The position numbers and the translations under genes are program-made. A DNA stretch of 64,000 nucleotides, from assembly GCA_025201375.1 (NCBI GenBank), contig JAIWZP010000001.1, positions 1,412,501 through 1,476,500 on the forward strand, written 5' to 3'. Source of the DNA: Gongronella butleri. Its lineage: Eukaryota; Mucoromycota; Mucoromycetes; Mucorales; Cunninghamellaceae. The notes under the pieces are model-generated. The model saw nothing but the letters and a program-made list of their open reading frames with translations. It had not been told where the DNA came from and did no database searches. Of the stretch, positions 19,191 through 61,333 are shown piece after piece; position 1 is the stretch's first letter; each line of letters opens with the position of its first letter.

Positions 19191-19769
19191 ACGATGCCAA
19201 GAAACAAAGTCATACATACTGTACTGCAGTACTTGCAGAATTGCAGTACAAGAAGTCAAAGTTTACACTTTACAGTACCAAAATCAACGCTTTTACTGTA
19301 CACTTTAAGGGCAAACATTTTAACATGGTTTATCTGTCCATTTTGAATTCAGTACAATATGAATTACTGTATGAAAGACGGAATCTGGGTATCATACAGT
19401 ATCTGACACTTTTTTCCACAATTCACTTGAATAATGATGCAAATTGCTGGCTTGCTGCCCTTGCTGCTGCATCGCGCTACGTACTGAGTACAGTACCTAG
19501 AGGCTACAGTATGTACTGTACACTGCACAAAAACGATCAAATTTACAGTACCTTTTACTGTACAGTACTGTACAGTAGGTACAGTACATTAAGCAAAGAG
19601 CGTGTTTTTCATACTTTGGCAGTTTGCTGTGCTTCCAGAATATTTTTTACAGTCTGCTCTTCCGTCAATGATGAAACCTGCGTAACGACTTTTAATGATT
19701 TACCGTAATCTACTGGTATCATACAGTATACTGTACGTAACCCAGTGTTCAAGACACAGTGACACACCC
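19191..19769. repeat. TA-footprint island 1, left part
   Basis: Dense in TACAGTA and TACTGTA. One chain near 19559-19592 reads TA-CTG-TA-CAG-TA-CTG-TA-CAG-TA-GG-TA-CAG-TA. Similar chains lie near 19217, 19500 and 19720. The motif is absent or rare in the coding blocks. The underlying sequence has no gene I recognise. The excision-scar interpretation is given in the findings. Confidence 0.6.
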
Positions 19770-20239
19770 GCCGCCCGATTTTTTTCCACTGTCGAAAATG
19801 CCAAAAACATCCTATTTGTACTATTTTGCAATTTGCATTCATCTCGCCATCTGCATGGTCAGCCCTGCTCAAAAATAGACGCATCGAGTTCAGTGCAAAT
19901 TTTGCAACAAAAAAGCTTAAACCCCCAAAGCGCTACGACCACTTTTGAAAAATTCAGGGGTCACTCAGGGGTCACTCAGGGGTCACACATTTCAGACTCA
20001 GAAAACGCCAAATTTGGGAAATTTCGAACTCCGGGTGATCAATGCATCTCAAACAGGTAACTCTGACAATAATTTGCTATTGGCAGACAAAATGGCAGAT
20101 CGCCCCAACCTTGAGAAAAATGCCCAAAGAGTGACGCATGAATGCCGATCGACTGAGAAAAGCGCCCACTTTGGGCAAGATTTTTTGTAAAAATTTAAGA
20201 TTTGACACTTCCAAATTAAGCGCGTGGATTGCATGGAAT
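19770..20239 (+). repeat. Repeat family R3, copy a
   Basis: Non-coding repeat also present near 40.8 and 59.5 kb, with a partial copy near 39.5 kb. Landmarks are 'gcaacaaaaaagcttaaa', 'cccaaagcgctacgaccac', 'ttttgaaaaattcaggggtc', 'ggaaatttcgaactccg' and 'aaagagtgacgcatgaa'. An internal 11-bp unit (tcactcagggg) is present in three copies here but two in the other full copies. It runs directly into R4. Confidence 0.85.
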
Positions 20240-20640
20240 TTTTATTTTTTTTATTTTTTTATGATATTTTTTTTGTTTTGCACATTTTAGTGCGCTGAGT
20301 GGGCTGCTTGCACGCTGCTGCAGGCTGCTGGTTATGATACTGTACGTACTGTAATAATGACCGATGCAAAAAGTTCAAACCCAAGCAGCTACAGTATGAT
20401 AGCGCGTTGCAACTTGCAAGTCATCCCATTAGGTGCTTTGCCCCCCCCTGTTTGCTACTGTACCGTACTGTACAGTACAGTACTGTAGTTACCGGTAAAC
20501 TGAAATAAAAATCGGGGGTCGACTATCATAGGCCGTTGTCGACCAAATTGGGATCCAAGATTTTGACGGAAAAGTGAATTTTTTTCTCTGCGACACTGCG
20601 AGTTTTTTTTGGATATCCATCGAGGAAGAAAGTCCTGCAC
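20240..20640 (+). repeat. Repeat family R4, 5' part, copy a
   Basis: Follows R3 as it does near 41.3 and 60.0 kb. Landmarks are 'gcaagtcatcccatt', 'tttgccccc', 'gggtcgactat' and 'agattttgacgg'. It breaks off at about 20640, where R2 sequence begins ('cacctcaaatgaaccagcgg'). Confidence 0.75.
20456..20497. repeat. Chain of TA-NNN-TA units in R4
   Basis: Reads TA-CTG-TA-CCG-TA-CTG-TA-CAG-TA-CAG-TA-CTG-TA-GT-TA-CCGG-TA. The matching copy at about 60.18 kb has only 'gctattaaaactg' at this place, so the tract is an addition inside the repeat that begins and ends at TA. Confidence 0.75.
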
Positions 20641-20965
20641 CACCTCAAATGAACCAGCGGGCAAACGCGGTAAAAGCGCTATTGTCGGCTTGTTGTGGTT
20701 TGGGTCTTTGGTAACATCGCGTCGAGCAGCTCTTCTGCCTGGGCGAGTACATATGAATGATTAATTATTCATATCATACTTCGCCTTCATCAGGGCTTCA
20801 GGGGTCGTTTTGAACATTTGATCCGGATCGATGGCTCGGATTTTATACTCAGATCAATGCATCATTTTCTCAGCATCATCTCAGGAGTCAGGACTGAGTG
20901 ATCTGATTTCTGGAAAAACTTGAAGAAAAGTTGCTTGAAATCATCGAGCGAAGGTTTGAGTCGAG

Positions 20966-21026
20966 TATCATACTGTATCATACGTACAGTAATACCGGTA
21001 TTATGTGCCTACTCGATAATACAGTA
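20966..21026. repeat. 61-bp chain of TA units replacing one TA of R2
   Basis: The R2 consensus here is 'gagtatccactgg'. In this copy the single TA has become TA-TCA-TA-CTG-TA-TCA-TA-CG-TA-CAG-TA, then further short TA-separated blocks, ending CAG-TA and resuming 'tccactgg'. The next two TAs of the same copy are also expanded: 21046-21056 as TA-CG-TA-TCA-TA, and 21069-21075 as TACTGTA. Confidence 0.8.
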
Positions 21027-21412
21027 TCCACTGGTGGTGGTGGTCTACGTATCATAAATTTGGCGCCATACTGTATGGTGGTTAGCTATTGGCTCATCGG
21101 GGGGCGCGGGGCGGGGAGAAGCGCGTAAAAAGATAATGTTTTGGCTACAGTCTATTATTACAGTACGGTATGTGTTTTCACTGGCAAACACGAATCTTGA
21201 TGAGATTTCTCGCGACTGAGTGATCCGATTCGCAAAAAAAAATAACACCGTGCGTTGTTGGAGAATTGGGTCTGCCATTAACTGGTGCAAATTTGGGACC
21301 AAATGATCAAGTTTCTGAGGAAGTGCCAGTTTCCTGGGCGTAAAGGGGGATAGGGGTAAAAAAAATCACCAGCATTTGGTCTCGTACTGCGGCAACGGCT
21401 GAGCGCCCCGAC

Positions 21413-21878
21413 TAGGGTTGTTAATTCGAGCGAGCGAGACGAGATTCACCTTGTCTCGTCTCGTCTCGACAAAATTTTGGGTCATCTCGATCTCGATCGA
21501 GATTCTCCTGGTCGAGATCGAGCGAGATTCGAGCGAGATTCGAGAATGTCACATGACAACTCGAGCATTTTTCTTCAAAACTTTGTCTGGTGGGGTGAAA
21601 AAATCCACCAAAAAAAGTCGACACAAAGACAAGAGTTGAACCTTTCACATCCTGAGTGCCAAGACAAAGCTTTTTCCCATTGCACCACAGCACTAATCTA
21701 AAATACATGATGAAACATTACACCTAACCTAATTTTTTTTGTTCGAGATTCGAGCGAGACGAGCGAGATTTTACTTTCTTGTCGATCGAGACGAGCGAGA
21801 TTCAGGTCGTCTCGATCGTCTCGATCTCGTCTCGAACCCTCGAGATTTTCGAGCGAGATTCTCGATTTAACATCCCTA
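21413..21878. mobile_element. hAT-like MITE, 466 bp, with 8-bp target duplication
   Basis: The element starts TAGGGTTGTTAA and ends TTAACATCCCTA, imperfect terminal inverted repeats of the TAGGG type. It is flanked by identical 8-bp copies of GCCCCGAC (21405-21412 and 21879-21886). Other R2 copies carry GCCCCGAC once at this position (about 50466), giving an empty-site comparison. Subterminal regions are packed with GAGCGAGA and its complement, which could fold. There is no transposase ORF, so it is non-autonomous. An 8-bp duplication with such termini points to the hAT superfamily; that class is inference from family knowledge. Confidence 0.85.
21625..21693 (-). ncRNA. tRNA-like Pol III promoter boxes inside the MITE
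   Basis: On the minus strand TGGTGCAATGG (21686-21676) fits the box A consensus TRGYNNARNNG, and GTTCAACTC (21640-21632) fits box B GWTCRANNC, 35 nt apart, a normal tRNA spacing. The acceptor ends do not pair and the anticodon arm is weak, so this is a tRNA relic or SINE-like head, not a working tRNA. Confidence 0.35.
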
Positions 21879-22860
21879 GCCCCGACGCGCGAGTCACCTC
21901 AAATGAATCAGCGGGTACGCGCAGTATGATACTGTAAAAGCGCTTGTGGTTTGGGAATATCGCTTCCAGTTTTCGGCGAGTTAGCCTTTAGGGTTCTTTT
22001 TGATCCTGATTTGGTCCTGATTTTATGAAAAATGCATTTTCTCAGCACTGAATGATCCGATTTGCGAAAAACCTTGGAATCTCCGAAGTCCCAAGTCGAG
22101 TATCCACTCTTCTTAATTTGAAGCCAAACGGCCAGCCTCATCGGGAGGAACGCGTAAAATATTCGTTGACACTGGGTTTCACTAGCAAACACGAATGTCG
22201 AGCTTTCTCGCGACTGAATGATCCGATTTGCAAAAAAAATTAACACGGCTGAAGAATTGGGTCTACCATCAACTGGTCCAAATTTGAGACCAGATGAGCC
22301 AGTTTCTGATGACGCGCCAGTTTCATGGGCGCAAAGGGGGTAAGATCAGCAGCATTTTGTCTCGTACGACGTCAACGGCTGAGCGTCCCGACGCGTGAAT
22401 CACCTCAAATGAACCAGCGGCCAAACGCAGTAAAAGCGCTTGTGGTTTGGGGACATCGCGTCGTGTTCTCAGCGAGTTAGCCCTCAGGGAGTCGATTTGG
22501 CCCTGATTTATGCAATATGCATTTTCCCAGGACTGAGTCATTCGATCACTGAAAAAACTTGACATCGTTGAAGTTTTGTCTTCATCACCCTCTAGTGCGA
22601 ATATAGGACCGGATGAACAAGATTCGAAGGACGCGCCCAGCAAAAGTGGGGTAAGATTTTGGTAGCGTGTGCAACAAAGGCCCAACGTATCGACACGCTA
22701 CAGTAGTCATCTCAAGTGAATCAGCGGCCAAGAGCGGTAAAAGCGCCTTCTGTTTTGAAAAGTTCGCGATGAGATCTCGGCCTGAGTGATCCAATCTCTG
22801 GAAAAAAAAACTAGACAGCGTTGAAGTTTTCTTCATTATCCTCTAGCTGAGATATAGTGA

Positions 22861-23420
22861 GCCGCCGAACAAGATTCGGCATGGCTGTCATGACAATCGT
22901 CAAATCATGTCGTGGCTGGTTTAGCTTGCAAACGACAGTAATTTATATGATTGAGCGTGCTCGCGTGTATTTCGCAAGGATCATGGACGACGTTGGCTGG
23001 GTGAGGTGCTACGCGTCACGCGCGTGATACAAATAGTCACGAGCCAGATGCTGCACGGCGCGCACCGCGCACTGACATGCATTTTGACTGGAAATAGCGG
23101 CCTTTATACAAGAGGTTTGGCCATGCTCGTGAAATTTGCGCACGTTTGCTCATTCGTGATCCAATTGCGCGTGTCACGTGTGACCGCGATATCGTACGAC
23201 TTGTCAAACGTGGTGCTACGAGCTATAGTGTAATGCATGCCAATTGTCCCATGGGGCTCTGCACTCGATTTTCGAACAAAAAGGAGAAAAGCGGGGAGAC
23301 GACGCGTGTTTTAGGTAGTTTGACCTTCATTATACGACTGGAGGCAAGCTTTTTTAATAATTCAAGACTATTTACAAAGTGGTAGAGAGAGGAACAGGGA
23401 ATTGAGGGGAAAAAGAATAC
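22861..23420. other. Intergenic, no gene recognised
   Basis: Sequence between the R2 block and the 3' end of LYS1. It has only short ORFs without domains. Confidence 0.5.
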
Positions 23421-38971: not shown

Positions 38972-40799
38972 ATTACTTTCCCCTGCCACTCTCTTGGATA
39001 CGCTGCTGTTTATTCGCCTAATTAAATAAAAAATAGAGATCAAAAACTCAATGACAGAAGGGTGGCGATACAAAAGTACAGCGCGTGTATGAGCCACGGC
39101 CCCTTATGTGACACTGTAGGTACTGGAAAAAGTGCACTTTTTGTTTCATAATAATGCTAATTCTGTGATCCTCCATCTGTTGTCAACTTTGATGGTGGCC
39201 CTTTTGTAAGCGTGAATAAGCGTGTCTCGTCACTTTTTTGAAAATACTCAGAGAGCAACCGCCCGGGCAATATAGAAAAACACCATTTTCAACCGTTTCG
39301 ATGAGATTTTACACACAAATATTATGTCTGTCTGGTGTTTGATCTGCCGATTTTGTAAGCTCAACGGTCAGAAATACGCGCGCTACGTAAGTATCATTTC
39401 AATGCCTACACATTACTTGTATAAAAAAAGTACACATACGTTTTTGAAAACGAAAAAAGACGCGTTTTCCGGACTTTACCGGCCTGTTGTACCTCCAGAA
39501 ATTTTTTTACAGCCTACTCACCCGCCATTGAAAATGCGTCACGGCTTAAAGTATGGTCATGTGCTCAAGACGGACCCGCCCGATTTTTTTGGACTCGAAA
39601 ATGTCAAAAACTCCTATTTGTACTATTTTGTATTCATCTGTCCACCTGTATGGTCGACCCCGCTCAAAAAAAATATATGATACTGTAGCTGCATCGAAAT
39701 GCCTACGTACCTATGATTTTCTGATTTCTGTTCATAAATCGAGAATTGGACAACTGCATTTTGACTTTGATATCCTGCTGAGCGCCCAGGAATGCACTGA
39801 GAATTTCTGAGATGAATTACATAACGCCATGCCCCTGGATGTAAAATTTGATTTGGAATCGAATGGTGTTACTTTCGGGCCTCGCTCGTTTAGTACTGTA
39901 ATGTAAAATCACTTGATAAGTGTTGCGCTTTTTTGACGCCGCCCAAGGCTACTGTAAAATCGCGTAAAATCGCGTAAAGTGCGGTTACAGTATCTCGAAA
40001 TTTTATAAAGTTTACGGACACCGTTTGAGAACTTTACAGTATTCGATTCTAAATCAAATTTTATCAACACTGTACAGTATCATACATCGGCAGCGCGAAA
40101 CAGAATTATGAATTGAACGATTGTTGAAGAACTAGTATAGTTGTACTGTATTAGAGCAAACTGAAGACATGACGAAATCGGCGCAAATCGCTAAGCGCTC
40201 AAAATAATCCAGCAAATATCTGACATGCATTTCGGTCTTCACTATGCGATTTAAAACCATCAATTACCCCTGGAACGTCTGTCAAAGCATTACAAATGCA
40301 AAGGTGCACTCAAAGAGCTAATGTGATTGCCCAGAGCCCAGTTCTCGATTTACAGTATGAAGATATGAACAGAAAATTCTAGCTACGGTAGGGGCACTGG
40401 CCCCTCAGGCACCGCGCACCGGCAACCCTTGCCGACATTGCCAACGTCGTCCCTGGTGGGCGCCCGGACATCGTTGCCGAGAATTCTTATCATAGAGCAA
40501 CGAGGCTCTCGAACTGAATGCAGTACGCGGGCGCGCGGCGCGAATCATGGGCGCACCACTCATCATCAGGTGCAGATTGATCAAGTCAACGGTGGTGTCA
40601 TCAATAGTACCAATGGCTGGTGACGCCAAGCAACAACAATGCGCCCGAGCCCATGGCTGTCGAGTGTTGTTGTCGACCTCATTCACAACATGTAAGCAGA
40701 AAAAATAACACAAAAAGGAGAAATATCATAGAAAATGAATTTACTGTTTGTGCAATTCGCAAGCAAGCAAATGACAGATTTCTTCACAACCCAGTAGTA
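38972..40799. repeat. TA-footprint island 2 with partial R3 (about 39.48-39.70 kb)
   Basis: After the SND3 trailer the sequence becomes rich in TACTGTA and TACAGTA (for example near 39680, 39895, 39951, 40035, 40071, 40143). A diverged R3 fragment holds 'cgcccgatttttttggac' and 'ctatttgtactattttg'. In that fragment TA-TA-TGA-TA-CTG-TA (39674-39687) stands where other copies have one TA. No gene is recognised. Confidence 0.65.
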
Positions 40800-41300: not shown

Positions 41301-42180
41301 TTTAATTTTTAATTTATTTTTTATTTTGCACATTTTTGTGCGCTGATGATTGAGTGGGCTGCAGGCTGGTGAAATGAGTACCAATGCGAAAAGTTACAGT
41401 ATAACCCAAGCGAGCGCACTGCAAGTCATCCCATATTCCCATTAGATGATTTTCCCCTTGTTTGTTACGTAGTAAAACTGGAATAAAAATTACAAGTTTA
41501 TTAGATGTTGTCGAGCAAATACTGTAGCAATCACCAATCAGCGATTTTGATGAAAAAGCGAAGTTTCTGTCTGCGAGTTTTAGCCATCCATCGTTGAAAC
41601 TACAAGTCTCATTCTACAGTATACGTAGAGATGCAAGAGGTGCGTTCGACACGTTAAAAGCGCCGCCGTGTGTTGTCTACAGTAATCCATTGCCAAGAAC
41701 ATCGAGGTTGAAATTTTTTGAAATGTTTGAACGGTTTTCACCAGCGTACAAATATCACTCATCGGGCAAAGCCGCAAAGCCGCAAAGGCAAACGGCAAAC
41801 AAACATTCCAGAAATGATGTCCGAGCCTGTCCGGTTCGAGCAGTGCAAGTTTTATTATTATGGCGATCGAAGAAGAATTTGACCAAGACATTGTTACAGT
41901 ATACTGTAATTGTGAGAATGTCGATACGTATTTTGGATTCATCATTTCATCTGCATAATGATCCAGTCGACCTCTGGCTTTTACAGAATCATAATGATTC
42001 ATTGAAAAGAAAAAGTCATGCTGGCAAAGGTTTGAAGTTGCTCGAACCATTTATATTTGTGGTGGACCGCATTAAGTTTGTGGAAATTAGTGAAATTGGC
42101 TATTATTGCCTTGACAACGGCTCAACTGAGCTCTGGTTTTTGCGTTTTTTCTGAAAAGAGAGGCCACGAAATATCATACA
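41301..42180 (+). repeat. Repeat family R4, copy b
   Basis: Continues directly from R3. Shares 'gcaagtcatcccat', 'tagccatccatcgttgaa', 'aaatgtttga', 'catcgggcaa', 'gattcatc...tctgca' and 'gaccc/gacctctgg' with the copies at 60.2-61.3 and 63.5-63.96 kb. A 186-residue ORF here is accidental. TACAGTA (41395-41401) and TA-CAG-TA-TA-CG-TA (41615-41627) are additions relative to other copies. Confidence 0.75.
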
Positions 42181-42888
42181 GTAAGCAAATGCCAAAGTTT
42201 GGTGACGATTTAACCACGAACAAGTCGTGACTGAGTCCTTTTTCCCTTTTTTCACGCATTCTCGACTATAAGTACACGTCAGAAGCATGCCGGACTGCTT
42301 TTAGTTGACAGCTGCAAGATTTATGTCTAACTCATGACGTCATAACACTCTGTCTTGAAAGGTACATGGATGATCAAATGTCGTGCACACCAGCTTGACG
42401 CGATTTTGAATGCCCAAAGGGCATTTTCAGCCATCAAAATAGTGGACAGCAGAGAAAAAAAAAAGGCACTCGCGCGTGTCGCGCGGCAAACGGGGGGTCA
42501 TTTACCCACCCAGAAGATTGAGTTTGGCGAGCCATCCATGAATTGGGGATTTTATGGTTTCTTGTTTAATACACGAATCTAAAATGCGACTCCTCCGTTT
42601 TTTTTTTCGTTTCCACGTTGCAAAGGCCATCATCATGCGCATGTTCGTGCCTTGTATCTTGAGTCAAAATACGAAATCAAGGCCGTGACATTGTCGTTTG
42701 ACGTGCTGAGCACGCGATTCTTTTTTTTTTTTTTTTTTACAGGTACGCAATGCATGGCGTTGTTTCAGCCGTGGGCGCGAAATTTGGTTTGGGGGAGGGC
42801 GACGGGGCTTCAAAGTTTTAAGCTTTCTCCTTTTTTTTTGCTGTTTTTGTCCGCAACGTTCCTTGACTTATTCCTGTTTTGCCTCCCG

Positions 42889-47314: not shown

Positions 47315-48159
47315 ATTCTCTCTATTTTTTTGCTCTCCTTTTTCTTTTTGGCCCATTATTGTACATAATCGCTTCGTCCTTTTTTACAAGCTACGGAATA
47401 AAAAAAATCAAAAATAAACAAAAAAAAATTAACAAAATTGGGCGCGGCAAGGCATTGCGGAGCACTATGTGGTCTCAAAGACTTGACCTTTAGTGGCCAC
47501 TCCGGTACTTTTGGTTCTTGAGATGTGCATCGATTATTATAAATCCGGGGCAAATGTCAACATTTTCGTGCATAGCCTGCCGAGATATCAGTAGAATCAC
47601 TTCACTTTTAGCACTCACTTCTATCTCGTCAACTTGCTCGTGAACTTGTTTCCTTTTTTTTCTTTGATTCGGTTGTGTTCTCGCGGATTTAAATCATGAT
47701 CAATGCGCATTTTCGTAGTGCATTTGAATTTTTCCAAAAAGTTTCTCCTGCACGATGTATCCAAAACTTGATCAAATGTCTTCAATATCTACGAGGAAAA
47801 GCTGATGATGCAAGTTTGACATGGATTGGAGCCCTTGAACGCCATCAATCTCAAATTACACAATTTAACGCACGAATGGCTTGTCAAGCACTAAATTTCT
47901 TGAGGGAGGGGGTGTCAAAATTTCTGTGCCTGTTCTGACTTTTCGTTATCGGCTTTTGCGCAACAAAAATGGGCATCAATCAATTGTTTGCCGTGAAAAT
48001 CATAAAATGGTGTCTTTTTATTGCTTTTTTCTTACCTGTCAAGGAATTACTTGCCCTACAAGGACAATTGGCCATTGAGTTCATTAGTACGCGCTTTTTC
48101 GTTGAAATGGGCCGGCGTTGCCGAAAAATGATCGATGGATCACGCGCAATCACAACGTT
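47315..48159. other. Intergenic between TEX1 and an R1 copy
   Basis: TEX1 trailer, then unassigned sequence with one 80-codon ORF listed separately. Confidence 0.5.
47696..47938 (+). CDS. Doubtful 80-codon ORF
   Basis: ATG follows a T-rich tract as at real genes here, and the product (MINAHFRSAFEFFQKVSP..., LTWIGALERHQSQITQF) has protein-like composition. No domain is recognised, the reading frame ends at an abrupt stop and no convincing second exon is seen. It may be a gene relic or chance. Confidence 0.2.
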   Translation: MINAHFRSAFEFFQKVSPARCIQNLIKCLQYLRGKADDASLTWIGALERHQSQITQFNARMACQALNFLREGVSKFLCLF

Positions 48160-48990
48160 AGAAAATGGCGAATTTTCCAAGGGGTGCAGTCGACAAGTTG
48201 AAAACGGCGCAATTTAGGTTCGCAGATTGCACGCCATTTAACCACTTGGGTAGACACGTCCTCACAACCAAGAGAGATGCAATAAAAAAGGAGGGTCCAT
48301 CGACTGGTTGTCGCGTGAAATGCATTTTGCTTGGTCTTTTCACCTCAAGAAAAAAAGTCACCAAAAATGGGTCCAGGGCCGCGAAACACAGACCATCCGA
48401 TAGAGCACGATCTGCTGCGTACGTGGCTATTGATGGTCATTGCAAAACATGAATTCCAGGCAGAATTAATGCGAGCAGCTTGTTTGCGGGGGAACTTCGA
48501 CGCGTGATAAAGCGCGTCAAGCGACGCGTTGCACGCGCCTGTTTTTGATCATTCATGCAACAGGCATGTCACATGCCAGTTAACGTGTCGGTACAGTTCT
48601 ATGAGCGCGCTTTTCTTGTGCAATTTGGCTGCAAAGTTTTATTCAAAATCGCGCATTGCTCGTCAACGAGCAGATCGCTGTCGCGACTTTTTAACATTTT
48701 TCGCGGTTTCTCCCTAGCGCGTCTCTTGTGTGCAAGTTTGGCGGGAATCTGGAGACCCATTTTTCCATTTTGGTTTTGGCGGCTCGCTACGACAAAAAAT
48801 TAATTTGCGTGTGGCGCGTCCGGAATCACTTTTGAGAGCTGAAAACTGAGTTCCACAGTGGTTTCTATCGCGCTATTTTCCCTTTAATCGTGTTTCAGGA
48901 TATTATAGTGGTCTGGATGACCAGCTGTCGTTGACATTTTACAAAACATTGACAGCCCAAAGGGTTTCTTCCCAGGAAGTTATCCAAAGA
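48160..48990 (+). repeat. Repeat family R1, copy c
   Basis: Has 'ttccaaggggtgcagtcga', 'gcgtgataaagcgcgtc', 'gtccatcgactgg', 'agagcacgatctgc', 'gcgcattgctcgtcaa' and 'ttcgcggtttctcc' in family order. Confidence 0.8.
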
Positions 48991-49139
48991 GCGCCAAATT
49001 TTGCCCAGATGACAACCGAGGGGATTAAGCCAACAAAGACCAGATTTTCTCTGCTATTGATTAGCATACTTTTGGAATTTGGCCCGGGAAATCAAAGAAA
49101 TTGAAAACTGTGCACATCTTGACCAGCAGGCTGATCGTC

Positions 49140-49255
49140 CCTGCCCTTTGTTATTGTTTTTTTATCAAAAAAGAAGCCATGAAATATCAAGAGTCGTGGC
49201 TTTTGCCCGTGATCCAAGCATGATTTTACCCCAAAAAATGAAAAACGCGTAATAT
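49140..49255 (+). repeat. R4 tail segment linking R1 copy c to the R2 array
   Basis: 'gaagccatgaaatatcaag' and 'catgattttacc' match the end of R4 near 42.16 and 60.98 kb. This shows the modules occur joined in a recurring order. Confidence 0.55.
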
Positions 49256-51080
49256 TATTTTGGCCTTGCGTTTTCGCTAGCAAACACAAATCTCGAGATT
49301 TCTCAGGACTGAGGGATCCGATGCGCGAACAAAATTAACACTGTTGGAGAATTGGGTTTACCATTAACTGGTCCAAATTTGGGATCAGATGAGCAAGTTT
49401 CCGAGGAAGCGCCAGTTTCGTAGGCGTAATGGGGCTAAAATCAGCACCATTTGGCCTCATACAGCGGCAACGGCTGACCGCCCCGATACGAGAGCCACTT
49501 CAAATGAATCAGCGGGCAAACGCGGTAAAAGCGCCTGTGGTTTGGGGACATCGCGTCGAGTTTTTGGTGACTTGGCCTTTAGGGATTGTTTTAATCCTTA
49601 TTTGGCCCTGAGATTAAGAAAAATACGTTTTCTTAGGACCGAATGATCGGATTTGCAAAATATCTTGGTATCATTGAATTTTCGAGTCGAGTATCCACTG
49701 ACCGGAATCTGGTGCCAGATGGTCAGCTTCATCGGGAGAAACGCGTAAAATATTGTTTGGCGCTAGGTTTTCGCTAGTAAACGCGAATCTCGAGGTTTCT
49801 CAAGACTGAGTGATCCGATTCGCGAGAAAAATTAATATTGTTGAAGAACTGGGTTTACCATCAAGTGGTCCAAATTTGGAACCAGATGAGCAAGTATTTG
49901 AGGTAGCGCCAGTTACATGGGCGTAAAGGAGGTAAATTCACCACCATTTGGTCTCATACAGCGGCAACGGCTGACCGCCCCTATGTATGAGACACCTTAA
50001 ATGAATCAGCGGGCAAACGCTGTGAAAGCGCTTGCGGTTTGGGGGCATCGCTTCAAGTTCTCGGCGAGTTAGCCTTTAGGGGTCGTTTTGATCTTGATTT
50101 GGCCCTGAATTTATGAGAAACACATTGTCTTCGGACTGAGTGATCCGATATCTGGAAAAACATGAAATCATCGAACTTTTGAATCAATTATCCACTGGTC
50201 TAAATTTCGAGCCATACGGTCTGGCACATCAGGAGAAACGCGTAAAATATTGTTTGGCGCTTGGTTTTCACTAGCAAATACGAATCTCGAGATTTCTCAA
50301 GACTGAGTGATCCGATTCGCGGAAAAAATGAAAACCATTGGAGAATTGGGTTTATCATTAACTGATCCAAATTTGGGACCAGATGAGCAAGTTTATGAGG
50401 TAGCGCCAGTTACATGGGCGTAAAGGGGGATAAAATCACCACCATTGGGTCTCATACATCGGCAATGGCTGAGCGCCCCGACGCGTGACTCACCTCAAAT
50501 GAACCAGCGGGCAAACGCGGTAAAAGCGCTTGTGGTTTAGGGACATCGCGTCGTGATCTCGGCGAGTTAGCCTTTGCGGGGTTGTTTTGGCCCTGATTCA
50601 TGCAAAATGCGTTTTCTCAGGACTGAATGATCCGGTTTCCGAAAAAACTTGACATCGTTGGTGTTTTGTGTTCAGCATCCTCTAGGTCAAATATAGAACC
50701 CAATGCACAAGATCCGGACGACGCGCCCAGCCAAAGTGGGATAAGGTTTTGTCCATTTTGGTAGCGTACACGACAACGGCCCATTGTATCAGCGCGCGAG
50801 TCATCTAAAATGAATCAGCGGGCAAACGCGGTAAAAGCGCTTGTGATTTGGAGACATCGCGTCGATATTTCGACGAGTTAGCCTTCAGTAGTCGTTTTGA
50901 CCCTGATTTGGCCTAAGTTTTTGCAAAATGCATTTTCTCAGGACTGAGTGATCCGATCTCTGAAATAACTTGAAACCATTGAAGTTTAGAGTCGATTATC
51001 CGCTGGTCTAAATTTGGCACCATACGTCCAGGCTCATCGGGACTTGGGAGAAACGCGTAAAATTCGGCTATGGTTTTTCC
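49256..51080 (+). repeat. R2 tandem array with 497-bp period
   Basis: The same point of the unit ('tctcgag' then 'tttctca') falls at 49291, 49788 and 50285, exactly 497 bp apart twice. Each unit itself looks like two diverged halves of about 250 bp, since 'gactgagtgatccgatt' and 'aaacgcgtaaaatattg' recur within it. Further, less regular units continue to about 51.08 kb. It is non-coding, with no TA-footprint chains, unlike the R2 block at 20.6-22.9 kb. Confidence 0.88.
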
Positions 51081-51689
51081 CTTTTGCAAGTTAATCTTGC
51101 CAAGTTTTCAACTTGATCTCTTCAATCCACAACTGCCTCAACTCTCTTTCCCGTACGGTTAATTTTTCTCGTGTCGCCGATAAAAACGCGCGATTGCCGA
51201 GAGAGAAGGATCATATTCTTCACTGATGCGCATGATTTTGTTCAAATCTTTTCCTAGAAAAGGGTGTCAGTATCTTAAACTCGATGTAACGGGCTTTCGT
51301 AGCCCTGAGAGACCAGTGGCCTAAGTTTGGGTGAGATCGAAGCACTGTAAGGCAAATCAGTCCAAATTAGATTGTTTTTTGTTTTTTTTTTTGGCGCTTG
51401 GCCTTTTTGTCTACTCGTATTTGAGCAGGTGCGCAAAGCACCTTTGTTAATGGTTTTAGACTCCTGTCAGACTCATGCCGTGCAATAAAGATCAAGTCGC
51501 TCATGTTGTTGCCGAGAAAATCGCAAGTAGAGCATTTCACAGCCAAATCGTCGTTTGTCAAAGCGACTGAGCAATCTACAACGCATCCATCGTTTTGCAC
51601 AAAGATTAGCACGCTGTCTCTTTTGAATAAGCCCACCCCTGAGCGATTACGAACTCTGGATCGTGAGTAAACCACCCTGCTCGAAAACT
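51081..51689. other. Unassigned sequence with a 111-codon minus ORF
   Basis: A minus-strand ORF (51702-51367) has no recognisable domain and overlaps repeat sequence, so it is not called. Nothing else is seen. Confidence 0.4.
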
Positions 51690-52390
51690 GCGGGTTTTCC
51701 AAAGGGTGCAGTCAACCAGTGCAAAATCGAGATGATCAAGTCCTTAGATCGCCATGCCATACACACCATATGGTAAATGCGCACCAATAACCGATAACAA
51801 TACAATAAGAAACTGCAATTCATTGGCTGATTTTGGTGTAAAACGCGTTTGAGGTCTTTTCAGCTCAAGGCCATCTCGACGAAGAATGCAGGAATCTCGA
51901 GGAAACTTACAACATTGGAAAGAGCTTGGATTGCTGCATACGTTGACATTGGTGATCATTGAAAAAAGTCCTTTTTGGCATTTTGACACGGTTTCAATGC
52001 CTTATATATTTTTTTTACGCGTGATAAACCGCGTCAGACGTCGCGTTTCACGTGCCTGGTCCTAGCCAATCCTTGCATTGGGGTGTGTCTCTTGCATTTG
52101 GACGCGTCGGCGATTCTCTATAGACGCGTTTTTCCAGTGCAGTTTGCCATTGAAATTAAATCTAAAATTGCTCATTGCTCGTCAGCGAGGAGTTGGAGGA
52201 CACCCTTTTTTTGTTATTTTCGTGGTTTCTTCTTGCAGGGTTTGTTGCATGCAAGTTTAGCCAACTTCTGGAGACCCATTTTTCAATTGTGGGTTTTGAA
52301 CTCGACAGGGCCCATTTTTTTTATTTGCAATTAGCGCGTCCTCAATCGCTTGTGTCGGCCACAAGTTGAGTTGCACGTGGTGTTTCTAGC
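51690..52390 (+). repeat. Repeat family R1, copy d
   Basis: Contains 'tttccaaagggtgcagtca', 'ttcattggctga', 'gccatctcgacgaag', 'ggtgatcattg', 'gcgtgataaaccgcgtc', 'cattgctcgtcagcgag' and 'ttcgtggtttctt' in family order. It is the most diverged in its middle. Confidence 0.75.
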
Positions 52391-57676: not shown

Positions 57677-59469
57677 CTTGATGTCCGGGAACTTGTTCAA
57701 ACATCAAGAGCTAATTCAAAGAAAAAAAAATATTAATTAAAAAAAAATATTGATTTTTGGCGATTTTCAACTTTATTTTTGTATTTGCCGGGTACACCAT
57801 CACTACCATGTAAAAAAGGAGGAGAAAAAGTAGCGGTGTGTCGATAGCAAAGCGATCGCCTGGGGTGGACTTTTTGAGTTCGGGAACTCAAGGCGCAAGT
57901 GCAAAATAGCGCTCTAAAGTTCCCGCCGGCGACCGGGCAAATCATCATTTCCTCTTTCGAAGCACTCAGTCCCTTCAGTTGTGAGCACTACAAAAGAACT
58001 GGCGCATCGACAATGCGTAAACATGCGGGTCAATCTGTGATCAAGTAAAATTGGCACCTTTTAGGCCGAGAATCGAGCTTCACACGTCACAGGAGCGCAT
58101 AGATGCGTGCTGCGCGCCACATGACGACGCCTTGTGGAGTTGTTGCAAATCTGGGCACAAGTTACCAGCCACTTTGCATCATCAGCCGTCCACAGAACCA
58201 AGTCACATTCAATTTACAGTACAACACATTTTCTGGCACAATTAAAAAAAAAGCGCGCCAGCCCGTCTTTGCGGCATTTCAATGCTCACTTGCGAGGATT
58301 GCCACAAAGCGCTATGGTATAATGTGTTGGCCTTTTAGCTGAACCAGTGCTAACCTTTCGATTGAGCTGCTACATCTTCCTCTAGACCCATGAACATCCA
58401 AGCGCGATCTGACAACACATGAAGACATGATGGCATGAATTTGGCTCAGGTCACAGATTACAGTATCGGCATTAACAGTAGTGGCATCATGAGCCAGTGA
58501 AATCTTGTGTCTTGATGGTTAGCTCGCCGAAATGTCCACGAATTTTCTTCAAAACACAAGCACCATGCACCATGTTCTCTTTGAGTCGCTAATTCATTTG
58601 ACGTCTTCATGGAGCATTGATGGGGCTGTCCCCACGGCGATTATTTGCTTTTAGTCATGATCTTACAGTATCACTTTTTATCGACATTCTGCTGCCCGAT
58701 CAGCTTGACACATTGACAAAAGCATACGCTCAATTTGTGTTTGATTTTGTACCTTGGTTCTATATTGTATGATACCTGGAAAGACGTTGTCAACTATACT
58801 GTATATAGTGATATCAACTTTATGCATTTTTTTCTAATTGCGACACTATTTTTCCGCTAAATCGCCATTGTGCTGCTTACAGCAGGCAGGTACAGAAATA
58901 AGTTACTGTATAGGTGAGCGATACTGTAAAATCACGACTTGTTTGCATTTTGCACATCCTTTTATAATTTATACATCAATTTGCAACGAATTCAAGCTGA
59001 CAAAATACCGTACTGTAGAGAACAAATTTCGCATTTCGCAACAAAATTGCTGCCTAACGCGTTGCCTCCGGATTCCTGGGCAGTGGAAACAAGGTCACAA
59101 GTGTCGATAAGTTTACTCATGATCTTGAATCATGATGACCAAGTACGGTACCAACAATTTTACTCTACTGTACTACTGTATGGTACGTGCACGAAACCAC
59201 GAATACAGTATCGCTTTTGACTGCATTTTTAAAGGGTCAGTGGATAGAATCTGAAATGCCCAGCTACCGTACAGTATTTCAAGTACTGTAAAGCGCTAAA
59301 GCCAGCCGCTGCATTATCGCGTTACTGTACACACTTACTGTACCTACTGTAACATTTACAGATTACAGTAGTAAAAAAAACATAGGTACATACTGTACAC
59401 TTTTGCCAATGGAACCTGTTTTGCGAAATTTGCCGGCCTGCTCCTGTGCCTCCAGAATTTTTTTACAGC
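57677..59469. repeat. TA-footprint island 3, left part; no gene recognised
   Basis: Up to about 58.2 kb the sequence is unremarkable. After that TACAGTA or TACTGTA occurs again and again (near 58215, 58462, 58798, 58922, 59165-59176, 59208, 59270, 59325-59350, 59391). Only short ORFs without domains are present. Confidence 0.55.
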
Positions 59470-60000: not shown

Positions 60001-61333
60001 AAAATTACTGCATCAAATTTTACAGTACACATTTTTGCGCGCTGGATGATGATGGTGGACTTGCTGCCTGCTGCCTGCCTGTTTGTACAGCCTCCTGGTG
60101 AAACGACAGATGCAAAAAGTTCAAACACAAGCTAGCGCGCTGCAAGTCATCCCATCAGATGTCTTGCCCCCCTGTTTGCTATTAAAACTGCAATAAAAAT
60201 TGCGGGTCGACTAGACCGTTCTCAAACAAATCGCGATCAAAGATTTTGATGAAAAGGTAGATTTTCTCTGCGAGTTTTAGCCATCCATCGTTGAAGCTGG
60301 TCTCGTTCGATAGAGATTCAACAGGTGCTTTCGACATGTTACAAGCGTTGTTGGTTGTTTTTCCAGCTGTCGAGAAAATTGAGCTTGAAAATTAATCCAA
60401 TGTTTGATCGATTTTTGCAAGCGTGCAAAGCTTGTCCATCGGGCGCGCAAACAACCTGGAAATGACATTCGCGTGCGTCACTTTCGATCCGTGCCATTTC
60501 ACGGCAATCCACTAAATAGTTTGAGACGACCCCGTTGTGGATAATATGTGAAAATGTCAAGATTTTGGATTCATCTGCACAACAGCTCGATTGACTTTTG
60601 GTTTGAACGTCTTTTCAAAAAGAGACGCGTCGATTTAACGTTTAACGAATGTCAAGCTATTGGGCGACCCAATCATGATGATTTGTGGCGTTTAATTTTG
60701 CATTTGTAAAAATGGCGTAATTTTGAATTCATCTGCACAAGGATACAGTACTGTACTGTACTGTACAGTCAATCTCTGGTTTTCAAGGTCTTGCTGAACA
60801 AGGCGTGGCAAAATAATTCAGAGAGCGAAGGTCGCGAGGCAATCGAATCATGGGTTGTGCTGGCCATTATTGAGTTTGTGACAATTCTTGAAAACGGCGC
60901 CTGCATGCCTCGAAAACGGCCTGAAAAACTCTGGTTTTTAAAATTTTCCTTCAAAGAGAGACGTTGAAATAATCAAGTGGCAAAGTTTGGCGATGATTGA
61001 ATCATGATTTTACCGCGAAATGATTTTACGAAACGTGCCACAGCCAAATTTTCAGCAATGTCGTGCTCTAGGACAAATTGGATGATCGACCTTTGGTTTT
61101 TTATTTTTTTCTGAGAAGAGAGAGGCAATATCCACTACTTGTAAAAGTTTCGTGGCGTTGCTGCGATGAGTCCTTGGTGAGGGATTTTTTTCATATTTAG
61201 AAAAAAAAAGATGGGTCAGGTCAAAATGCATCTGGAGGGTCTCCTGCTTTGAGAGGTGCAAGCCCAGACAAAGATCTCAAATCCGTTTGGCAACCTACAC
61301 ATTGGGCATCTGAGAGTCATGCCATTAGATGCT
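60001..61333 (+). repeat. Repeat family R4, extended copy c
   Basis: Begins as in copies a and b, then shows internal reiteration of a segment with 'ttggattcatctgcacaa' and 'atctctggtttt' followed by 'aaaagagacg' (near 60570, 60730 and, weaker, 61050). One reiteration holds TA-CAG-TA-CTG-TA-CTG-TA-CTG-TA-CAG (60744-60769), where the copy near 63.89 kb has 'gcacaatgtgccaatc'. The right end is interrupted by the LINE. Confidence 0.75.

Follow-up and report, generated by a model that had tools for sequence, protein, structure and literature searches.

How does a stretch of intergenic DNA come to be studded with TA dinucleotides that are separated by a handful of three-base spacers? The question is raised by 64,000 nucleotides of the Gongronella butleri assembly (C1:1412501-1476500, hereafter the window; the assembly has 33.0 Mb in 110 contigs), where copies of dispersed repeats carry tracts of units of the form TA-NNN-TA, joined in chains. 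A thiolase ORF of the window matches a G. butleri protein at 100% across 99% of the query. An earlier, sequence-only reading had likened these tracts to the excision scars of Tc1-like transposons. Our analysis leads us to regard them, with near certainty, as nested excision footprints of Tc1-like cut-and-paste transposons. What is new is that two resident groups of such elements, A and B, lie mostly at TAs already flanked by CAG or CTG, and that chains of CAG/CTG units accelerate after two units. Below, CWG denotes CAG or CTG, CSG denotes CCG or CGG, and TSA denotes TCA or TGA.

We started from the abundance of the units. Relative to a second-order Markov model, the window holds 37 copies of TACTGTA where 1.09 are expected and 34 of TACAGTA where 1.03 are expected (71 together versus about 2), followed by TATCATA (13 versus 1.65), TATGATA (9 versus 1.39) and the spacers CCG (4 versus 1.12) and CGG (4 versus 0.99). 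Both partners of each spacer pair are similarly frequent and the signal is therefore without strand. The same six triplets head the ranking of all 64 spacers (CAG 34-fold, CTG 33-fold, TCA and TGA 11-fold, CCG and CGG 5-fold) in a pooled set of 302 kb, which comprises 71 sequences including the window, after removal of 15 redundant loci and with a 0.5-kb overlap between L067 and L081 retained; its loci were selected for transposases or repeats and are a non-random sample. In all six, TCA and TGA included, the first base is complementary to the third. When spacer lengths from 0 to 6 were compared in the pooled loci, length 3 stood out (1,321 versus 418, 3.2-fold; the rest 0.9- to 1.6-fold). Genome-wide, word counts were set against reversed controls: TACAGTA and TACTGTA occur 16,213 times in 33 Mb, their control 6,355 times (the control word lacks the TA-NNN-TA form), and the difference widens for TACAGTACAGTA (733 versus 9), for TATCATATCATA (341 versus 1) and for runs of three CWG units (695 versus 2). 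These controls and the Markov counts of the window rule out a chance origin of the units. The spacers CAG/CTG, TCA/TGA and CCG/CGG had all been named from sequence alone and are indeed the top six of 64, but the two-base spacer CG, named with them, is merely weakly enriched (14 versus 6.7 expected in the window, 99 versus 46 in the pooled loci). CG may be a trimmed footprint instead of the mark of a separate family; other trimmed-type spacers are mostly without enrichment in the pooled loci (CATG 2 versus 3.3, CAGCTG 0, TCATGA 0). As a separate observation, the spacer CCGG, TACCGGTA, is 14 times over-represented there (17 versus 1.2) and could be a two-plus-two-base footprint of elements ended CC...GG.

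Insertion at a TA can be followed in repeat copies with and without the extra units. For one dispersed repeat with 596 first-look candidates in the genome, an alignment was made of 30 copies, namely that of the window at 20330..20640 on the plus strand and 29 others; expansion was scored with fixed anchors, other dinucleotides serving as comparison cells. Expansion with TA retained at both ends was seen in 24 of 180 TA cells, while 114 of 4,498 other cells expanded with their own dinucleotide retained; 48 of these 114 are three-base expansions and a few are the same TA insertions viewed from the neighbouring dinucleotide. Inspected by hand, 15 of the 24 TA expansions contain a CNG or TSA unit, three are TACGTA, five are three-base expansions (e.g. 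TATTA) and one is of another kind. Expansion at pre-existing TAs, as read from the window, is thus borne out; that every tract starts and stops at a TA goes too far, many TA cells being altered otherwise. The site CCTGTTTGT[TA]GTAAAACTG, for example, is a plain TA in 17 of 25 scored copies, and in the window copy it holds six units, CTG-CCG-CTG-CAG-CAG-CTG (20456..20487); the TA of AAGC[TA]GCGCG holds two, CAG-TGA (20390..20401). At CCCAT[TA]GATG, 18 of 27 scored copies are intact and others read TACTGTA (one), TACGTA (two) or TACGGTA (one). Varied spacers at one TA are exactly what independent footprints predict. A pairwise gap listing put the TA-type label on 24 of 187 insertions, many being of other type; this share is low because gap placement is ambiguous. 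The commonest small insertions in the repeat copies have three bases, and 30 of 47 of them are exact tandem duplications (5 of 14 at one base, 3 of 11 at two, 2 of 23 at four). They may have been left by a different class of element that duplicates 3 bp, or else reflect repair.

The genome contains elements with fitting ends. A profile search gave 74 matches to PF13358 (sometimes two per gene) and three to PF03184; the PF01359 profile gave none, its controls being equally silent. Tc1/mariner transposases and Tc1-like elements flanked by TA, on which the sequence-only reading had staked its case, are therefore present, as are filled sites, i.e. elements inside chains. Inverted ends beside TA revealed family A (CAGTG/CAGTACCC...), family B (CCGTACCC, CCGTCCCC and CCATACCC), family C (CCGTGGCTCTC) and family E (CACTGACTGAC). 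Family P, pogo/Fot1-like, has a DDE_1 domain and TA-flanked inverted ends (three genome matches; the one in L031 ends TA-CAGTAGGTTCTGG). Three further families were defined on one side by a sharp boundary, the TA where copies with differing flanks begin to match, with preceding triplets scored by hand: D1 at TA-CAGAGTTTCCACTG (7 cases, 4 at a TA without preceding CWG), D2 at TA-CCGGATTTCCAGTG (5 cases, none with preceding CWG) and D3 at TA-CTGGATTTGTCCAATC (6 exact, copies 99.9% identical, 5 without preceding CWG). Their second side was not found in the loci examined. The terminal triplet is CAG in the A families, P and D1, CTG in D3, and CCG in B, C and D2, so that elements living in this genome, in part at plain TAs, can supply both CAG/CTG and CCG/CGG spacers. 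The idea that further families account for the further spacers is thereby upheld for CCG/CGG; no element was found for TCA/TGA, and CG is the weakly enriched spacer described above.

Several features place A, B and C among the Tc1-like (DD34E) elements. All three have terminal inverted repeats and a TA duplication, and the proteins of L048 (A1), L043 (C) and L053 (B1) carry HTH_Tnp_Tc3_2 and DDE_3, both above curated cut-offs. In B1, the one protein counted, 34 residues lie by eye between the second D (MEDGAP) and the E (NPIENLW), and its single match to a solved structure at E <= 0.001 is the catalytic domain of Sleeping Beauty SB100X (E 2e-33). Among the matches listed genome-wide, 54 of 58 A ends, 48 of 49 B ends and 16 of 17 C ends stand beside a TA. 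Some copies are young: A1 copies of L048 and L081 share 99.85% identity, and the 1,630-bp C elements with 212-bp inverted repeats (L043, L044, L045, L084) include two, L043 and L044, that are 100% identical over 1,630 bp. In the window itself no end of the families then known lies beside a TA (16-base seeds, at most two mismatches), and short exact end seeds gave one CAGTGCCC match, not beside TA; that the window holds no such element had been noted before. Around the transposase genes of L011-L025 no TA-flanked inverted ends were found within 1.5 kb, and in the wider regions L034-L042 and L085 no clear end pair belonging to these genes was seen. Three of these groups are D1, D2 and D3, with the one-sided boundary at TA described above.

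To see where the elements sit, ends were collected with open-flank patterns that excluded a first base A, which misses about a quarter of ends with no known bias. For 41 of the 54 A ends and 46 of the 48 B ends (87 of 102 together) the triplet directly outside the end TA is CAG or CTG; the same holds for 0 of 16 C ends and for 8.3% of all TAs in the pooled loci. At seven more A ends the outside triplet is CCG or CGG, which in two cases belongs to the terminus of an adjacent B2 element. None of the 102 A and B ends has TCA or TGA outside, though TSA makes up 231 of 983 units. When a plus end was paired with a minus end at most 2 kb downstream, 27 of the 36 elements so paired had CWG on both sides, compared with 151 of 12,023 TAs of the pooled loci. 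The joined flanks of these 27 read CTG-TA-CAG in 12 cases, mixed in 14 and CAG-TA-CTG in one, whereas chains offer 15, 52 and 21 such sites; relative to supply, CTG-TA-CAG is over-used and CAG-TA-CTG under-used (p 0.004). Exactly one unit lies outside 0.52 of A and B ends pooled, where random use of CWG-TA-CWG would give 0.54 and plain TAs 0.92. A and B elements are thus likely to select scars for insertion.

Chain growth points in the same direction. CWG-only chains in the pooled loci number 533 single, 28 double and 24 longer, the longest having nine CWG units. A second unit was thus gained in 52 of 585 (0.089), near the 0.052 expected were all TAs equal, and a third in 24 of 52; this faster step coincides with the first TA that has CWG on both sides. 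TSA-only chains gained a second unit in 17 of 214 cases and a third in 0 of 17. In the window and repeat loci alone, which were not picked for transposases, a third unit was gained by 8 of 19 CWG and 0 of 5 TSA chains that had reached two. Adjacent units in the pooled loci differ in 174 of 238 cases, and CWG neighbours have the same orientation in 55 and the opposite in 42. Together with the matching element ends and the filled sites in chains, such non-uniform neighbours back the earlier proposal of repeated insertion and excision into existing scars.

The scheme that we consider probable overall joins nested footprints with A and B elements landing in excision scars, each visit adding further sites of this kind. 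An element would insert at TA and duplicate it; upon excision, three terminal bases of one end would stay behind between two TAs. By analogy with Tc1/mariner transposases, which cut the non-transferred strand some bases within the element, three in Mos1 (PMC8151067, PMC4344528), two three-base 3' overhangs would base-pair at their first and third positions, and resolution of the central mismatch in either direction could give CAG or CTG, CCG or CGG, TCA or TGA. Every cycle would add TA plus three bases and one further TA. Families entering plain TAs would found the chains: with their CAG or CTG ends and their partial occupancy of plain TAs, D1, D3 and P are candidate founders whose excision is putative. 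The related groups A (ends CAGT) and B (ends CCGT) would then insert mainly at a TA between two C-N-G triplets, chiefly CTG-TA-CAG, which may arise from two adjacent scars or from a scar beside another element's end. Insertion and exit would convert one CTG-TA-CAG site into two, and chains would feed themselves from two units on. As read from the sequence, the unit spectrum, the insertions at TA in repeat copies, the matching ends, the A and B elements in scars and the faster growth from two units all agree with this scheme, in which target choice would lie with the transposase and excision would presumably continue. With somewhat less confidence we propose that the target of A and B spans eight bases, C-N-G-TA-C-N-G (best CTG-TA-CAG), and is itself the product of CAG-ended excision, and that within neutral intergenic islands these elements create, propagate and re-enter landing sites of their own.

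Several observations weigh against this scheme. The one-unit share that fits for A and B pooled conceals opposite deviations from 0.54, with 15 of 43 A ends (0.35, p 0.015) and 28 of 40 B ends (0.70, p 0.040). B should leave CSG, but a unit enclosed by CWG neighbours is seldom CSG (5 of 59; TSA 9, CWG 45). The growth curve comes from loci picked for transposases or repeats; the window alone has 59 single and three four-unit CWG chains. Furthermore, 585 CWG chains began at plain TAs compared with 52 second and 45 later units. A and B as now placed would make chiefly later units and other families must therefore have founded most chains; of the candidates, D1 and D3 each show one boundary only. 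Finally, a TCA-ended element was not found by inverted pairs, boundary families or chain-adjacent ends. The last search gave 284 places versus 53 in its control, and among 100 listed one sequence recurs three times, which looks like part of a dispersed repeat.

The main rival shifts the true A and B ends outwards by one unit (CWG-TA-CAGT...); the elements would then enter plain TAs, carry CWG-TA along and leave single CWG scars. This agrees with the CWG unit outside most ends and would account for the surplus of single CWG scars and the scarcity of CSG between CWG units, both awkward for scar targeting. It is weakened, however, by the variable outer bases, the abutment of elements and the number of units outside their ends. 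The outer W differs between the right ends of 99.85% identical A1 copies (L048 versus L081), and a single copy can differ in it from one end to the other; among 46 A cases, five have CSG as the outer unit, in the manner of ordinary scars. Elements abut via one TA with no CWG unit between (L048, L079; C2:209.3k, C69:31.4k, C45:201.7k). The one-unit share of 0.52 falls well short of the 0.92 that plain TAs would give, and single scars have another candidate source in D1 and D3. We therefore consider extended ends unlikely. It is less probable still that A and B insert at any TA and either survive in scar-rich neutral islands or gain flanking scars afterwards. Chains are in fact clustered: the window holds 77 chains of the six spacers, 15 with at least two units, mainly in three intergenic islands (about 18-22, 38-42 and 58-60 kb), with 68 of the 77 in five 2-kb bins and none starting inside 13 ORFs selected from 24 listed (p 1.4e-5), which contain 278 of the 2,055 window TAs. 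Yet CWG on both sides marks 151 of 12,023 TAs and 27 of 36 element pairs, the ends of family C, from the same genome, have CWG in 0 of 16 cases, and later gain of scars would leave many bare ends where merely 2 of 48 B ends lack CWG; accretion or survival alone is rejected on these counts.

Two other explanations seem to us hardly tenable. One makes the tracts a five-base (TACWG)n microsatellite growing by replication slippage, transposons having no role. The 5-bp unit, the period of 5 that Tandem Repeats Finder reports at 20456 and the quickening of growth at two units would suit it. The class, however, has one repeated unit in one orientation, and here most neighbours differ and CWG neighbours take both orientations, with three equal units in just 7 of 50 listed plus-strand triples (of 695; hand count); the mixed orientations therefore do not fit slippage, nor do the differing spacers at one TA in different repeat copies or the match of spacers to resident element ends. 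The other, to which we give the least credence, has A and B duplicate the whole TACWGTA (7 bp) upon entering a single scar, both flanks being copies of it. In its favour, no site is commoner than the single scar, and elements with one unit on each side are frequent, but about half of the pairs contradict the idea, as flanks are unequal in 13 of 27 (12 CTG-TA-CAG, one CAG-TA-CTG).

How do nested footprints compare with known systems? The bacterial IS630, of the same superfamily, is said in a paper's title to prefer TA within CTAG, likewise an extended target around TA; CTAG is not known to be a product of IS630 excision, whereas the preferred CTG-TA-CAG is a product of excision of CAG-ended elements. 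Nested transposon insertions are a second parallel, with elements directly beside others of the superfamily in L048 and L079, but in G. butleri the insertions lie mostly in scars rather than in elements. Sleeping Beauty and other Tc1-like (DD34E) elements resemble A and B in TA duplication, CAG ends, transposase domains and the experimental footprint TAC(A/T)GTA (PMC3432063, PMC8151067, in the parts seen), and the identification of TA-CAG-TA and TA-CTG-TA with that footprint agrees with the former source. In those parts, footprints are single scars in assays, and target use by Sleeping Beauty is described as near random at TA (PMC8151067); the G. butleri genome shows nesting genome-wide, up to nine CWG units, and two groups that reside in the footprints. 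Drosophila transposon target motifs are palindromes extending up to 3 bp past the duplication, a rule that CTG-TA-CAG obeys, and that account, in the part available to us, makes no tie between a target motif and the element's own footprint (PMC3276498). Among the matches listed in open-licence literature, titles and abstract beginnings described neither footprint chains nor targeting of own footprints, which does not prove their absence.

Footprints are usually regarded as inert mutations. Here they are countable (16,213 TACWGTA), serve as a built-in log of earlier transposition, and seem to determine where related elements reside. With them comes a testable case of a transposon that creates the sites it targets and leaves genes alone, together with a route to microsatellite-like DNA other than slippage. 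If true, the islands would be a safe refuge that renews itself, its age and traffic being legible from the chains, and if strains differ in their chains, a natural lineage recorder is possible.

Two further observations concern the elements. Near-perfect palindromes of about 1.0 kb with A1 ends occur at L045:228-1233, L048:1199-2203 and L052:1526-2531, with 419-base arms that are 98.8-99.3% identical; many listed A and B ends pair at a similar distance. The D3 loci (L018-L023, L041, L042) include six DDE_3 matches of equal score, five of them at most 2 kb from a contig end, and the copies begin jointly at TA-CTGGATTTGTCC with 99.9% identity, the other end not being seen.

The remaining chains of the window are as follows. 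All ten tracts listed in the sequence-only reading contain TA-NNN-TA units when re-read, but 20456-20497, 20966-21026 and 21146-21170 also include non-unit stretches. In the first island we find TCA-CAG at 19390..19401 and again at 19717..19728, CTG-CAG-CTG-CAG at 19556..19577, TGA-CTG at 20333..20344 and 21925..21936, TCA-CTG-TCA at 20966..20982 (the tract to 21026 being mixed with non-units), a single CTG unit at 21069..21075 and CAG-CGG at 21159..21170. Further along are TGA-CTG (39676..39687), CAG-TCA (40073..40084), TCA-CAG (42172..42183) and a single CAG unit (41395..41401), whose flanks resemble by eye the consensus AAAGT[TA]AAACCC in a copy outside the alignment. A tandem repeat of 497 bases at 49243-50598 is without a footprint chain (bins 48001-52000) and perhaps a young amplification. 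The list continues with CCG-CTG at 59006..59017 and CCG-CAG at 59265..59276. The tract at 60744-60769, whose listed end reads CAGT, contains a clean chain of four units, CAG-CTG-CTG-CTG, at 60744..60765.

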